From assembly GCA_017531765.1 (NCBI GenBank), contig JAFXKJ010000156.1, forward strand, positions 1 through 55,792: DNA of 55,792 nucleotides, read 5' to 3'. Of the stretch, positions 41,164 through 48,101 are shown in pieces. The stretch's first letter is position 1. Each line of letters opens with the position of its first letter. A model generated the notes under the pieces. The model saw only the letters and a list, made by a program, of their open reading frames with translations, was not told the DNA's origin and did not search any database. The stretch comes from Clostridia bacterium (lineage in GTDB: Bacteria; Bacillota; Clostridia; Oscillospirales; CAG-272). Position numbers and translations under genes: made by a program.

Positions 41164-41360
41164 AAAAAAGAACCCTGCGGTGTTCGACCGAAAGCGATAA
41201 AAACCCACAAAGAGTAAAAAGGAGCCCGGGCTTCGCACGTGAGGATGCAGACCTCCCTTTATCTCCATCGCGCATTCTGCGCCTCTGAGGTAAAAGGAAG
41301 CTGGGAGCACGAACCGTACGAGAGGGCACCGCCCTTGCAGAAGAGCAGGGTTTCTTCTTC
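41164..41360 (+). ncRNA. ssrS: Candidate 6S RNA (structured RNA of about 197 nt)
   Basis: The 5' segment AACCCTGC (41171-41178) pairs with GCAGGGTT (41345-41352), closing a rod of about 180 nt. Inside, GGTGTTCG and AAAAACCCACA on the 5' side recall the conserved 5' arm of Firmicute 6S RNA. A CCTTTA.../...TAAAAGG stem leads to a terminal GCGCA-ttc-TGCGC hairpin. The length fits 6S RNA, which mimics an open promoter and traps sigma-A RNA polymerase. No clear promoter is seen, so it may be processed from the DUF1292 transcript. Identification is by memory of motif and fold, not by covariance search. Confidence 0.45.
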
Positions 41361-41390
41361 GCTTTCATCGGCACACGCGGGGATTTTATT

Positions 41391-41552
41391 TTTCAACATG
41401 ATTAGCAAAATCATGTTGAAAGTGAAATATCATGATTCGTTGAATCATGATATGAAATTTTCGGCTTCGCCGAAAGTGAAATTGATATTCGCAAAATGCA
41501 AATATCAGTGAAATATTTTCTTTTGTCGATATGACAAAAGAAAATGTGAGGT
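41391..41552. repeat. Array of five different hairpins joined by a conserved GTGAAAT linker
   Basis: Five inverted repeats with unrelated sequences follow each other: 41391-41421 (13-bp stem), 41429-41451 (10 bp), 41459-41475 (7 bp), 41483-41507 (7+3 bp with one mismatch) and 41515-41545 (13 bp). Between them the 7-bp linkers are GTGAAAT (41422), ATGAAAT (41452), GTGAAAT (41476) and GTGAAAT (41508). After the last hairpin GTGAGGT (41546) provides the ribosome binding site of the next gene. Stems differ in sequence but linkers are kept, the reverse of what random terminator clusters show. The function is unknown. Confidence 0.9.
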
Positions 41553-41559
41553 AATTATT

Positions 41560-41988
41560 ATGGAGAATTTTAATGAGTATTTTTTGAAAGATCGTAGGGT
41601 CTTTCTCGAAAACATAAACTACGAAACAGTCAAGGCTGAGACCATGGAGCCTCAGCGGCGTCTCGGGTGTCGCGATACTGTGGTAGCTCAGCTCATCGGG
41701 GATCGCGGTGTTAAGATAATCTTCAACAGAAGGCTTAATTTTGAACCTGAGGCTCTCTTCACCCTCTCAGTTTCATTCGGAGTGTTCCTCCGTTTTGATC
41801 CTACACGTTACGGTGAAGTGAATTGGAAAGAGGTAAACATAGTCAAGCAGTTTACAAGTGACTGCCCTGCTCTCATGAGTGAGCTTAACGCGAGAACGAC
41901 CATGATGGTGGCTCAGATTACAGCGGCATCAGGCGGTGTGCCTATCGTTACGGGTAATCCTCACGATGCCAAAGGAAATACACAGTAA
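41560..41988 (+). CDS. Small protein with possible SecB-like fold
   Basis: The 142-residue protein begins RRVFLENINYETVKAE-type strands, has a central GVKIIFNRRLNFEPEALFTLSVSFGVFLRF, and ends in a helix plus loop, CPALMSELNARTTMMVAQITAASGGVPIVTGNP. A beta-rich body, a long helix and a final Gly-Pro-rich segment are the layout of SecB-type export chaperones and their solitary or toxin-antitoxin relatives. This is fold-level inference only. Its ribosome binding site (GTGAGGT) is formed by the last linker of the hairpin array, so the array lies in its leader or is its immediate neighbour. A bidirectional terminator follows. Confidence 0.6.
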   Translation: MENFNEYFLKDRRVFLENINYETVKAETMEPQRRLGCRDTVVAQLIGDRGVKIIFNRRLNFEPEALFTLSVSFGVFLRFDPTRYGEVNWKEVNIVKQFTSDCPALMSELNARTTMMVAQITAASGGVPIVTGNPHDAKGNTQ

Positions 41989-43272: not shown

Positions 43273-44817
43273 TTACTTATCGTTTTCAATATTCTTTAGA
43301 ATATCAGCGATATTATTATTTACGGTTCTCGCCTGCATCTTGTACCTGGATGAGATACCCTGGTTTGTTTCCTGGATAGCACACTTGATCGTTCTTACGT
43401 ATGCACCGTCGCCGTTGTTACTTCCGTCTTTAACGAGGAAGTCGATGATATCGTATACCTTTGTTTCAAAGATAATATCGATCATATCTTTGGAAGCCTT
43501 GTCATATGTGGAACGACCCTGGAGAAGGTTATCGTAATATGCAGGCTTGATATAACGGAGACCGAGAGCTGCCATAGCCTCAAGGATTACACCTGTTACA
43601 GTGGGATCCTTTGTTGTCTTGGGAACGAATACGTTGAACGCAGACCAAGGCTCAGCGAAGGAAATATAATTTTCCTGAGCTGTGCTTCCCTTGGGAAGCG
43701 GAAGGATACCGAACTCTACGTCTTCTTCACGGAGATCCGCAGCAGCACCGGTTGTGGCGAAGTAGAAGAGAATATTGTTCTTTACGAACATTTCCTGAGT
43801 ACCCTCAAATCCGTCGTACTTTTCCTCAAAGCTTTCGGCTGTTGAATGATCAAGAACGCCCTTGGTGTGAACTGTCTGAGCATCGTCACCGAAAACCGCA
43901 GAGAACTTGTCAGAAAGGTCAGAAAGCTCCTTGGGATATGCCTCGGGAACATAAGGAGTGGAGTCCGTATTGAATCTGGTAATAGAGTAGTCATTTGCAT
44001 AAAGAATTGCAAGACCGTTAGGAGCTGAATATCTGTATGCACCTGCGCCGCTTTCGTTTTTGGGGATTTCGGAGGCAACCTCGAACATCTTATCAAACGT
44101 CCATGAGCCGTCCTTTACGTAGCTGTACAGATCTCCCACGTTATAGTCTGTAGCAACCTGCTTATTAAAGAGAACTGCGTGGGTATCGGTGTAGTTTGAA
44201 GATACAATAGCACCGTTAAGGAAGTATGTAGCACCGTTGATGTGGTATGTGTCAAGAAGGGATGCAGTCCACCACTTGTTGGAGAAGTCTATTCCGTCAA
44301 GTGTGCCGGCATCGGTAAGTGTATTGTTTGAAAAGAGAGGCTGACATACGGCAACGGGCGTTCCGTAACCCGCATCATATGCATTTGAGCCTGCCATAAC
44401 ATCTTTTTTTACAACTTCAACTACGGGGTGAGTTCCGGAGTCTCCGCCTTCAATAGCTTCAGGCTGATAGTTTTCCCATGAGATCTTGAATTTTTCTTCG
44501 ATGTCTCTCTGACGGTAATAAAGCGCGTCCTGAGCAACGTCACCCGTTTCCTCAGAATCAGTAGGAGCCTGAGAACCGCCGCCGATCCATACGAATGACT
44601 TACCGCTGAAATCGTTGTCTTCCGCAAGCTCATCCACGTAAGCCATGATCTCAGCACGCTCTTTTTTCTCTTCTTCAGTGAGCTTGTCATCTCCGGAAGA
44701 TGCGTTTCCTAAAATAGGAGCCGTAGTGGATACAGCTTCTCCTTCGCTACCGCAAGAAACCACCATCGGAAGAATCATCAGAATCACAAGAGTGAGCGCT
44801 ATGATTTTCTTTAACAT
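43273..44817 (-). CDS. Extracellular solute-binding lipoprotein, tandem paralogue 1
   Basis: The 514-residue lipoprotein has a signal peptide and lipobox MVVSC near residue 22. The mature part carries motifs shared with the next two genes: TGDVAQDALYYRQRDIEEKF, AYDAGYGTPVAVCQPLF, SWTFDKMFEVASEIPKNE-GAGAYRY, VEFGILPLPKG and YIKPAYYDNLLQGRSTYD. It belongs to the large class of ABC-importer solute-binding proteins (family 1-like). No permease or ATPase gene is nearby. The ligand is unknown; carbohydrate is the usual guess for such proteins. A promoter and terminator bracket it as a single gene. Confidence 0.85.
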   Translation of the reverse strand: MLKKIIALTLVILMILPMVVSCGSEGEAVSTTAPILGNASSGDDKLTEEEKKERAEIMAYVDELAEDNDFSGKSFVWIGGGSQAPTDSEETGDVAQDALYYRQRDIEEKFKISWENYQPEAIEGGDSGTHPVVEVVKKDVMAGSNAYDAGYGTPVAVCQPLFSNNTLTDAGTLDGIDFSNKWWTASLLDTYHINGATYFLNGAIVSSNYTDTHAVLFNKQVATDYNVGDLYSYVKDGSWTFDKMFEVASEIPKNESGAGAYRYSAPNGLAILYANDYSITRFNTDSTPYVPEAYPKELSDLSDKFSAVFGDDAQTVHTKGVLDHSTAESFEEKYDGFEGTQEMFVKNNILFYFATTGAAADLREEDVEFGILPLPKGSTAQENYISFAEPWSAFNVFVPKTTKDPTVTGVILEAMAALGLRYIKPAYYDNLLQGRSTYDKASKDMIDIIFETKVYDIIDFLVKDGSNNGDGAYVRTIKCAIQETNQGISSRYKMQARTVNNNIADILKNIENDK

Positions 44818-44872
44818 GATTTATCTCCTTATAAATTTATTTCGAAGTCATTTCTGACAACTTCGCAAAATA

Positions 44873-44901
44873 ATTATATCACAAACTGCGTTCCATTTCA
44901 A
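44873..44901 (-). promoter_or_regulatory. Sigma-A promoter of the lipoprotein gene at 43273
   Basis: On the reverse strand TTGAAA (44896-44901) and TATAAT (44873-44878) are 17 bp apart, about 55 nt before the start. Confidence 0.75.
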
Positions 44902-45013
44902 CCAAAAAAAACTGTCAACTTGTTTTTTCCCGTTTTGCACATATTCTTCAGATGTTTTTCGTTGAAATTCACAATGAAAGCACTTAACATCCAAGTCGCG
45001 GGGTCACTGTACT

Positions 45014-46543
45014 TTACGATGTCCCCAACTGATCTTTTTCAATATTTTCAAGCAGGCTTTTGATACTTCGGTTTACATTTTTGGCTTGAAGCATATACCG
45101 CGACGTAAAGCTGTCATTGTTTTCCTGGAGCCCCGCGATCACAACCTTTACGAAATCGGTTTCCTGGTTAATACCGCCCTCTACCGCAAGGAAATCCACA
45201 AGATCATATATTTTCGATTCAAAAATGATATCTATCATATCTCTTGAATCGTGGTCGTACATGGAACGGTATTTCAGCAGCTTATCATAATACGCGGGTT
45301 TTATGTATTTTCTGCCCAGCGCCGCAAGCACTTCTATCATGAGGTCGGTAAATTCGTGATCCTTATTGGACTTCGGAACAAACACATTTACCGTTCCCCA
45401 GTTATCTGTTGAAGAAATATAGTTCTCTTGATTTTTGTCCCCCTTTGGCATGGGAAGAATTCCGAACTCGACTTTATATTTTCTCAGCTCGGCAGCATCC
45501 CCCGTGGTAAGATTATAAAACAGGAAATCTCCTCTTTCAAACATTTCGTTGAAATTTTCAAATCCGTACTTCTTCTCCACGCTCTCGCGTTTTGTTCCCC
45601 AACGGTACTTGATATTGGCAGAAACAGAGTCATCCGCATAAATACTGCAGAGCTTCTCCGACAGATCGTACAACTCCTTCGGTATCGCGGTTTCAATGTA
45701 CGGAGAGCCCGTTTCATCATATGACGTCAAAGTAATCCCATGGGCATACATTGCCGCAAGTCCGCTGGGATTTCCGAAACGGTATGCACCGGCTCCGTTT
45801 TCGTTTTGGGGAATTACCGAGGCAACCTCAAACATCTTATCAAAAGTCCACTCATCGTTATAGACGAGATCGTATAGGTTTTCGATACCGTAGTCAAGAA
45901 CGATCTGCTTGTTGAAGGCAAAGCAATACGTATCCTCGTAGTACGTCGTGACGATCGGACCGTTGAGAAAGTACATCGAACCGTTTATTGAATAGTTGTC
46001 CTCAATATGCTTCGGCCACCATTCGCGATCAAAATCAATGATGTCGTAATTGGATACGTCGTACAGTGTATTTTTTACAAGCAACGGCTGTACAACCTGG
46101 ATCGTGGTTCCGTAACAGGCATTATACGCACCGTTACCCGACATTACATCCGCCATAACATAATCGTACACTGAATAATTCTCGGTTATTCCGTCATGGA
46201 CTGTAACCACATTATTCCAGGTAATGCCGAACTTTTCTTCGATCTCACGCTGTCTGAAGTAAAGTGCATCGTTGCGGATATCTCCCGTTTCCTCTTCTTT
46301 TTCGGGATATTGCCATTGGTTTCCGCACCAGGTAAAGGTCTTTCCCGCGCAGTCGTCAAACCAATCCTCAGAAAGCTTATTTATGTATTTATCAACGTCC
46401 GTTATGAGTTCGGAATCTATCTCATATGTGACCGCCTCCTGAGACAGTGTTGCACCCTCGTTTCCGTTTCCGCCTCCGCAAGACGTAAGATACGGAACGG
46501 TACACAGCACTGCAAGGAGTAAAGCCGTAATTTTTTTAATCAT
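45014..46543 (-). CDS. Extracellular solute-binding lipoprotein, tandem paralogue 2
   Basis: The 509-residue lipoprotein has lipobox YLTSC near residue 21. It is closely related to its neighbours: TGDIRNDALYFRQREIEEKF, AYNACYGTTIQVVQPLL, EWTFDKMFEVASVIPQNENGAGAYRFGNPSGLAAMYAHG, VEFGILPMPKG and YIKPAYYDKLLKYRSMYD. GGAGG precedes the ATG at 46543; the open frame upstream to 46588 overlaps the previous gene and is not likely used. The end of the upstream paralogue lies 22 bp away, so the two may be co-transcribed. Confidence 0.85.
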   Translation of the reverse strand: MIKKITALLLAVLCTVPYLTSCGGGNGNEGATLSQEAVTYEIDSELITDVDKYINKLSEDWFDDCAGKTFTWCGNQWQYPEKEEETGDIRNDALYFRQREIEEKFGITWNNVVTVHDGITENYSVYDYVMADVMSGNGAYNACYGTTIQVVQPLLVKNTLYDVSNYDIIDFDREWWPKHIEDNYSINGSMYFLNGPIVTTYYEDTYCFAFNKQIVLDYGIENLYDLVYNDEWTFDKMFEVASVIPQNENGAGAYRFGNPSGLAAMYAHGITLTSYDETGSPYIETAIPKELYDLSEKLCSIYADDSVSANIKYRWGTKRESVEKKYGFENFNEMFERGDFLFYNLTTGDAAELRKYKVEFGILPMPKGDKNQENYISSTDNWGTVNVFVPKSNKDHEFTDLMIEVLAALGRKYIKPAYYDKLLKYRSMYDHDSRDMIDIIFESKIYDLVDFLAVEGGINQETDFVKVVIAGLQENNDSFTSRYMLQAKNVNRSIKSLLENIEKDQLGTS

Positions 46544-46565
46544 CTTAGGTATCCTCCGTGAAAGC

Positions 46566-48101
46566 TCAGTACGACTGATCCCTTTCAACCATTTTCCTTA
46601 TCCTATTTATATTTTTGTTCACTGTTTTTGCCTGCATTTTGTAACGCGAAACAAAGCTTGACGCATTTTCGTCAATCGCCCCGCGTACGATGCGGACAAA
46701 GTCGCTGTCCATATTGATACTTCCGCCGATTGCGACAAAATCAATTATATCGTAACGCTTGGTTTCGAAAATTATGTCAATCATTCCCTTGGAGTCGTAA
46801 TCGTAGGTGGATCTGCTTTTCAGAATCATATCGTAATATGCGGGTTTTATGTATTTGTACCCGAGGGATGCAAGAGCTTCAAGCATCACGTCAGTCATTT
46901 CAATGTCCTTCGCGGATTTGGGAACAAATACATTGGAGGCTCCCCACGTACCCGTACCTGATATGTAGTTTGGCTGTGAGGCGTCACCCTTGGGAATTGG
47001 GAGAATACCGAATTCCACGTCGTACACTCGGAGCCATGCAGCCTCACCGGTAGTCAGGAAATAGAAAAGGAAATTTCCTTTGGCGAACATCTCGCTGTAA
47101 TCCTCATACCCGTACTTGTTGATGCACCACTCTCTCTCCGTAAAGCCGCCATAGTCACCTTTACTTGATGCGCATATGGCCTCATCTCCGTATATCTGTG
47201 AGAATTTCTCAGCTAAATCATAGACACCTCTCGAAACGCTTTCATCAACGTAAGGATATCCGTACTCATCATACTCTGTCAACGAATATCCGTGTGCATA
47301 AAGCGTTGCGATTCCGTCGGGGTTCCCGAAGCGATATACACCCGATCCGTTTTCGTTGGTGGGAATTACAGAGGCAATCTCAAGCATCTTGTCAAAGGTC
47401 CACAGGTTATCGTACACCAGAGCATAGAGATCCTCCAGATCATACTCATGGGCAATCTCTTTATTAAAGGCGATACAGCACGTGTCCTCGTAATTCGACG
47501 TTACAATAGCTCCGTTGAGGAAATAAAGGGATCCGCCTATGGAGTAAAAATCCATCAGTCCGGGTGTCCACCACTCACGATTCAGGTCAAGATACTGAAA
47601 ATCGCTGACATCCATGAGCACGTTCTGAATAAAAAGCGGCTGTGCGATGGCTATTGTAGTACCGTAGCACAGGTCGTAAGCGCCGACACCCGAAAGAACG
47701 TCCTGAAGCACGTGATCGTACACGCCCTGATTACCCGTGCCGAGATCCGGTGGCCAGAAATTGACCCAGTCAACGCCAAAATGCTCTTCTATCTCTCGCT
47801 GTCTGTAGTAAAGGGAATCGTTGCGTATATCCCCCGTTTCCTCTTCCCTTTCGGGAGCCTGACCTTCGTTGCCGCACCAGGTAAAGGTTCTTCCGTTAAA
47901 GTCACATTCGCTTGACAGATCGTCAATATAACTGTCAACCTCGGGATTATCGAAGGACACAAACTGTTTTTCGTCACTGTCACTCTGAATCTTCACGGTC
48001 TGTACCGGTTCAGGACTGTCATTGCCGCCATCGGAGCAGGATGCCAAAAGCATCAGGAGTGCAATGACAATAGCTGTAATGGATAAAAATCTGCTTTTCA
48101 C
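46566..48101 (-). CDS. Extracellular solute-binding lipoprotein, tandem paralogue 3
   Basis: The 511-residue lipoprotein has lipobox MLLASC near residue 22 and the same core motifs: TGDIRNDSLYYRQREIEEHF, AYDLCYGTTIAIAQPLF, LWTFDKMLEIASVIPTNENGSGVYRFGNPDGIATLYAHG, VEFGILPIPKG and YIKPAYYDMILKSRSTYD. It is closer to paralogue 2 than to paralogue 1, judging by the GNPxG and AHG segments. It leads the group and is divergent from the nucleoside hydrolase gene. Confidence 0.85.
   Translation of the reverse strand: MKSRFLSITAIVIALLMLLASCSDGGNDSPEPVQTVKIQSDSDEKQFVSFDNPEVDSYIDDLSSECDFNGRTFTWCGNEGQAPEREEETGDIRNDSLYYRQREIEEHFGVDWVNFWPPDLGTGNQGVYDHVLQDVLSGVGAYDLCYGTTIAIAQPLFIQNVLMDVSDFQYLDLNREWWTPGLMDFYSIGGSLYFLNGAIVTSNYEDTCCIAFNKEIAHEYDLEDLYALVYDNLWTFDKMLEIASVIPTNENGSGVYRFGNPDGIATLYAHGYSLTEYDEYGYPYVDESVSRGVYDLAEKFSQIYGDEAICASSKGDYGGFTEREWCINKYGYEDYSEMFAKGNFLFYFLTTGEAAWLRVYDVEFGILPIPKGDASQPNYISGTGTWGASNVFVPKSAKDIEMTDVMLEALASLGYKYIKPAYYDMILKSRSTYDYDSKGMIDIIFETKRYDIIDFVAIGGSINMDSDFVRIVRGAIDENASSFVSRYKMQAKTVNKNINRIRKMVERDQSY

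Follow-up and report, generated by a model that had tools for sequence, protein, structure and literature searches.

A chain of five hairpins joined by a short shared linker in a Clostridia genome is a genuine structure under selection and an extended variant of the catalogued Gut-1 motif (RF01706), not a novel kind of element. It occupies positions 41391-41545 of the window, the whole 55,792-nucleotide stretch of DNA analysed here, and comparison of orthologous chains between species indicates that joint letters and stem pairing are kept while stem letters and loops drift. The preliminary description of variable palindromes alternating with a conserved linker is confirmed, at a level beyond chance, with joints reading GTGAAAT or ATGAAAT. 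The features of the region are as follows.

41169..41387, + strand: 6S RNA gene, directly upstream of the chain (Rfam RF00013, 47.2 bits, cut-off 46.4)
41391..41421, + strand: hairpin 1, 13 bp stem
41420..41519, + strand: Gut-1 (RF01706) match, model positions 1-77 of 77, 44 bits, E 7.3e-7, cut-off 50
41422..41428, + strand: joint 1, GTGAAAT
41429..41451, + strand: hairpin 2
41452..41458, + strand: joint 2, ATGAAAT
41459..41475, + strand: hairpin 3
41476..41482, + strand: joint 3, GTGAAAT
41483..41507, + strand: hairpin 4
41508..41514, + strand: joint 4, GTGAAAT
41515..41545, + strand: hairpin 5, stem of 13 bp or more
41546..41552, + strand: GTGAGGT, probable ribosome binding site of the next gene, not a joint
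41560..41988, + strand: ORF of 142 aa without a Pfam match, with relatives in 12/146 family genomes (own included)

Because the stems extend into the linker (AT...GT/AT), the unpaired joint comprises GAA only. RNA folding of 41380-41570 yielded z = -8.4 on the + strand and -10.7 on the - strand, with 0/200 shuffles as good on either. The word RTGAAAT is not enriched in the window (24 observed, 25.6 expected); the unusual feature is the placement of four copies exactly at the hairpin joints, not word frequency. Rarity was assessed over 417,417 bases, comprising the window and 40 contigs of its own genome (five trimmed at 20 kb, contigs bearing other Gut-1 matches excluded), against three shuffles of single letters within 200-base blocks. 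Two chains had four or more hairpins, that of the window and another whose joints are not shared, compared with one in each shuffle, so that the window's is the sole chain of this length with a shared joint. Under a looser filter, nine joint-sharing chains were obtained against 3-4 in each of the three shuffles, the eight outside the window consisting of three hairpins and two joints each. A chance row of palindromes is rejected on these scans together with the identity of joints at 188/196 sites between orthologous chains. Three of the window's five hairpins are terminator-like on the - strand and none on the + strand; a stem followed by a T run, as in an intrinsic terminator, was found for none of the five on the sense strand.

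The sequence GTGAGGT had been proposed to serve both as the last joint and as a ribosome binding site. The former role falls away, no hairpin following it, and the latter probably holds because in G008 and G011, sister species that lack the array, the same 142-aa ORF is preceded by GGAGG or TTAGGTGG. This ORF adjoins the 6S RNA gene in both species, with the array absent from the intervening spacer, and in G006 it lies in a different setting, also without an array; G008, at 95% completeness, has no Gut-1 match at E 1e-3. On these comparisons, the window's chain was gained or lost within the genus, and it is dispensable in G008 and G011. Elsewhere in the window (43273-48101, - strand), three adjacent similar ORFs of 511-524 aa look by eye like lipoprotein solute-binding paralogues.

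The preliminary description knew of no named element of this form, which the Rfam entry contradicts. Three consecutive hairpins joined by UGAAAU, the defining arrangement of Gut-1 RNA, are present in the window, and all 77 model positions align over 41420-41519. However, the array has five hairpins and longer stems, and related arrays have other linkers or a bipartite build. Its score lies 6 bits below the gathering cut-off of 50 bits, and it is therefore Gut-1-like, not a member by Rfam's rule. In the same genome, estimated to be 75% complete, a limit of E 10 gives 19 Gut-1 matches; 7 of these, all in arrays other than the window's, exceed the cut-off, and relatives also have matches over it; at that permissive threshold 9/14 control genomes match as well, none over the cut-off. 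Stricter thresholds place the motif in 11/12 genomes of the genus (E 1e-3; controls 1/14), 81/146 of the family (E 1e-8), 33/291 of the class (E 1e-8) and 2/199 across the phylum (E 1e-9), the last three counts including the own genome and having 0/14 controls.

Gut-1 was listed in 2010 from metagenomes, and the table of the source paper records it as an RNA, as not cis-regulatory and as 'Human gut only' (PMC2864571). Gut-1-type chains also occur in named ruminant-gut contigs, so the motif is not limited to the human gut. In the open-licence literature, no paper on Gut-1 function was found, and searches on the linker string, palindromic repeats in Clostridiales and REP terms returned nothing on this element. 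The constraint evidence, neighbourhood, linker classes and two builds described here are new relative to that literature.

Similar chains do exist elsewhere, above all in Clostridia, as the preliminary description had anticipated. It had set the lack of any other array with this linker as one test that would refute its account, and other arrays were found. A scan of named genomes for three spaced GTGAAAT words returned at least 119 stretches; taking the first match per strand in 80 listed stretches gave 88 matches. Among the matches listed, both gaps were palindromic in 29/52 with a Clostridial label and in 2/36 others, both of the latter in Akkermansia-labelled contigs, and the 23 Clostridial misses were a mixture of near misses with short stems and simple tandem repeats. 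The Akkermansia-labelled stretches (L170:1800-3480 and L173:6985-7120) carry hairpin chains with joints GTGAAAT and ACGAGAT, those of L170 inside larger tandem repeats. Near the chain in L173 there is a Y1 transposase, but the surrounding repeats are by eye of other kinds.

Evidence of constraint comes from chains at the same gene ends in different species. After purH, chains occur in G000, G002 and G004, and none was seen in G001, G006, G007, G008, G009 and G011 (nine genomes compared; G003, G005 and G010 lay outside the comparison). After pfkB they occur in the same three genomes and not in G001, G003, G006, G010 and G011, eight being displayed. After ylbF, five hairpins with joints of the GTGAAAT type are present in G000 and G004, and eleven with joints mostly GTGATAT in G002; G005, G008, G009 and G011 have no chain. 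A RumA-like gene is followed by chains in G000 and G010 and not in five other displayed genomes (paralogues possible), and only G000 has a chain after addB among 7 displayed genomes and after trpB among 5.

In two or three species, such chains keep five hairpins in the same order. Across seven species pairs of five-hairpin chains at purH, pfkB and ylbF, leaving out the G002 array at ylbF, the joints are identical at 188/196 sites, compared with 59-64% identity at 4-fold sites of purH. Free variation of the linkers between strains, which the preliminary description had named as a second refuting outcome, is thus not what the species comparison gave. The hairpins themselves are about 67% identical in gapped alignment, a figure with no baseline for unrelated hairpins, and each of the 40 compared hairpins folds, forming 3 to 16 pairs (just three in two of them). 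At pfkB, the first hairpin includes the stop codon, and its right arm tracks the change GGTTAA to GGCTGATAA. At L014 (about 1460-1515) and L016 (about 1460-1490), the left arm of the first hairpin belongs to the 3' end of the upstream coding sequence, with the mirroring right arm on the other side of the stop codon.

A second body of evidence is provided by G004, in which ten copies of one five-hairpin element stand at unrelated sites and can be aligned over about 130 bases, accompanied by two further dispersed families. Changed sites amount to 27/170 in loops, 5/120 in GAA joints and 23/960 in stems. Eight two-sided pair changes stay paired, as do four one-sided changes, and three break a pair. 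The covariation score and the percentage paired lie above all 500 shuffles, the number of double-change pairs was reached by 1/500 and that of further pair types by 24/500; slid controls came nowhere near these values, although the structure was drawn from the same copies, which favours it over such controls. Five of the element's sites were compared with relatives, and no element was seen at any of the 15 displayed junctions (5, 5, 3, 1 and 1 per site). A same-strand ORF lies just upstream of only 5/10 copies. Downstream of hairpin elements, L066:1100-2083 and L068:1100-1700 of this genome are mosaics of further dispersed repeats.

By eye, the matches in the own genome and in relatives fall into two builds. 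Linear chains, many with five hairpins, have all their joints pointing the same way; in bipartite chains, hairpins with the linker in one orientation are enclosed by an outer stem, after which come hairpins with the linker reversed. The linkers differ between arrays (GTGAAAT, GTGATAT, GCGATAT, GTTATAT, GTGAAG and ATGAATTG). Among 21 arrays of the genus (62 joints, 65 within-array pairs), the last six linker letters are common to 82% of within-array pairs compared with 37% under random dealing (0/5000 as high), in a sample restricted to arrays with joints of one loose pattern and no 16-mer in common, a restriction that narrows the range of linkers. When 48 chains were compared more crudely and unfiltered, with chance chains among them, identity was 0.60 within chains and 0.49 between them. 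One fixed linker for all arrays is accordingly rejected, linkers agreeing within a chain and differing between chains. Over 302 distinct hairpins, the joint that follows starts with G in 251 cases, with A in 49, with T in 2 and with C in none.

Regarding growth, the suggestion that units are added singly by a transposase or reverse transcriptase is unsupported, orthologous chains keeping five ordered hairpins. One-at-a-time growth also finds no parallel in the two expanded arrays examined, which consist of tandem blocks: the G002 ylbF chain repeats a 38-base, two-hairpin block 4.7 times, and a G005 chain repeats a 62-base, three-hairpin block 3.4 times. Descent by such duplication would also explain the uniformity of linkers within arrays. 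Overall, the comparisons show chains that may be present in one sister species and missing from another, that recur at dispersed sites and that can grow longer when a block is duplicated in tandem.

The unit upstream of a chain is a gene, a tRNA or, in the window, 6S RNA, and the chain mostly shares its strand. Of 46 genus loci (L001-L046), 33 were retained after 13 were dropped as contig ends, repeats of one array or weak; some are orthologues or family copies and not all are independent. An upstream feature was present within 600 bases at 32/33 and lay on the array's strand in 28/32, nine of the 28 being tRNA genes. Two of the four exceptions, by eye a GroEL-like end and a T-box-like leader, are presumably errors of the crude caller. 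Chains also separate neighbouring same-strand genes, namely purH/purD and addB/addA. By eye, several chains follow a terminator-like hairpin, so that little RNA would be expected to extend into them, and some bipartite chains, lying between units, have a terminator on either side. RNA is favoured by the orientation and the strand-specific joints, but not by the wobble test: among the 302 distinct hairpins, the RTGA strand has 8 G.T against 25 A.C (p 0.005), or 8 against 16 without foot pairs. As proof of RNA the wobble strand failed, leaning toward the opposite strand.

The array is one lineage-specific case within a large set of Gut-1-type chains. We tentatively favour, at somewhat less than even chances, a selected hairpin chain with sequence-specific joints that would serve, most likely as RNA, as a nucleic-acid scaffold at a transcript's 3' boundary. 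Rigid hairpins would offer one partner, which may be a protein or a processing enzyme, a series of GAA joints closed by A-U and U.G or U-A pairs; the chain would thereby protect or trim the upstream RNA at its 3' end and separate it from the next gene, in the window setting 6S RNA apart from the 142-aa ORF. This reading is consistent with joints more conserved than purH 4-fold sites (188/196 vs 59-64%), with covariation in the ten G004 copies (8 two-sided pair changes, 3 broken), with the pfkB hairpin whose right arm follows a codon change, with the same-strand upstream feature in 28/32, with placement at purH/purD and addB/addA, and with the Gut-1 match itself. Against it stand wobble pairs that do not favour the joint-bearing strand as RNA, the good folding of both strands, the G004 copies with a same-strand ORF in 5/10, the chains behind terminator-like hairpins, the two sister species without the window's chain and the lack of a Gut-1 match at E 1e-3 in G008. 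A broader version, in which chains would mark transcript ends across Clostridia and the joint would be a recognition word with a per-chain dialect (GTGAAAT, GTGATAT, GCGATAT, GTTATAT, ATGAATTG) for a putative dedicated binding or processing protein, stems being free while paired, is unlikely.

Several other accounts would place the origin of the constraint elsewhere. A non-autonomous mobile repeat of MITE- or REP/BIME-like type, settling in spacers after genes and keeping pairing and joints for its mobilising enzyme instead of the host, is possible but somewhat improbable. The ten similar copies and two further families in G004, the empty orthologous junctions (15/15 displayed, five sites) and the patchy presence all fit it, whereas the persistence of chains with conserved joints at identical gene ends in two or three species does not. 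Y1_Tnp (RAYT type) occurs in 3/12 genus genomes, G008 has it without arrays, it was not found in the own genome (75% complete), and the flanks of the four Y1_Tnp genes read contain no linker-hairpin chains. Neither distribution nor flanks thus support a RAYT-mobilised REP as the main account. The claim that the array is the opposite of REP elements was nevertheless too strong. REPs too are short intergenic palindromes in many copies, possibly at 3' ends, with unpaired tags (GTAG, CGTC) beside the palindrome; they differ in that REPs keep their stem sequence, whereas here stems vary and the joint is kept (PMC3733652). In the window, the hairpin feet carry GTGAAAT or ATGAAAT instead of a GTAG or CGTC tag, no Y1 transposase flanked by such chains was found in the 75% complete own genome or in the 3/12 genus genomes with the enzyme, and no RAYT link emerged. 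CRISPR arrays share the regular alternation of constant and variable parts; here, however, constant joints of 7 bases alternate with palindromes, in place of long identical repeats and unique non-palindromic spacers.

A DNA-level element, with extruded cruciforms or a binding site handling supercoiling at gene ends, is distinctly unlikely. Enterobacterial REP arrays, which bind gyrase, provide its model; the good folding of both strands, the wobble pairs without sense-strand preference and the bipartite chains between units, some terminator-flanked on both sides by eye, agree with it, but the strand bias toward the upstream unit and the one-directional joints of linear chains do not. Preservation of palindromes by mutation, with template switching copying one arm onto the other instead of selection, is very unlikely: it would account for double transversions from G:C to T:A in ten close copies, where none of the pairs concerned shows an unpaired cell, and for first hairpins that mirror coding sequence at gene ends, while leaving unexplained why non-palindromic joints are kept better than 4-fold sites and why hairpin number and order are kept. 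Least probable of all are weak tandem terminators for antisense transcription, an idea that draws on the ATTTCAC after each hairpin on the other strand, the three of five hairpins that are terminator-like there against none on the + strand, and the wobble excess on that strand; the T run, however, is three only, and other linker classes (ATATCAC, CAATTCA and ATATCGC on that strand) lack one.

Altogether, an orphan motif gains gene neighbours, orthologous copies, linker classes and a split between conserved joint letters and conserved stem pairing. Gut-1 can thereby be tested by deleting a chain or mutating its joints in a carrier that can be cultured, and a gene-end element that resembles REPs but is built differently is brought into view in a major gut class.
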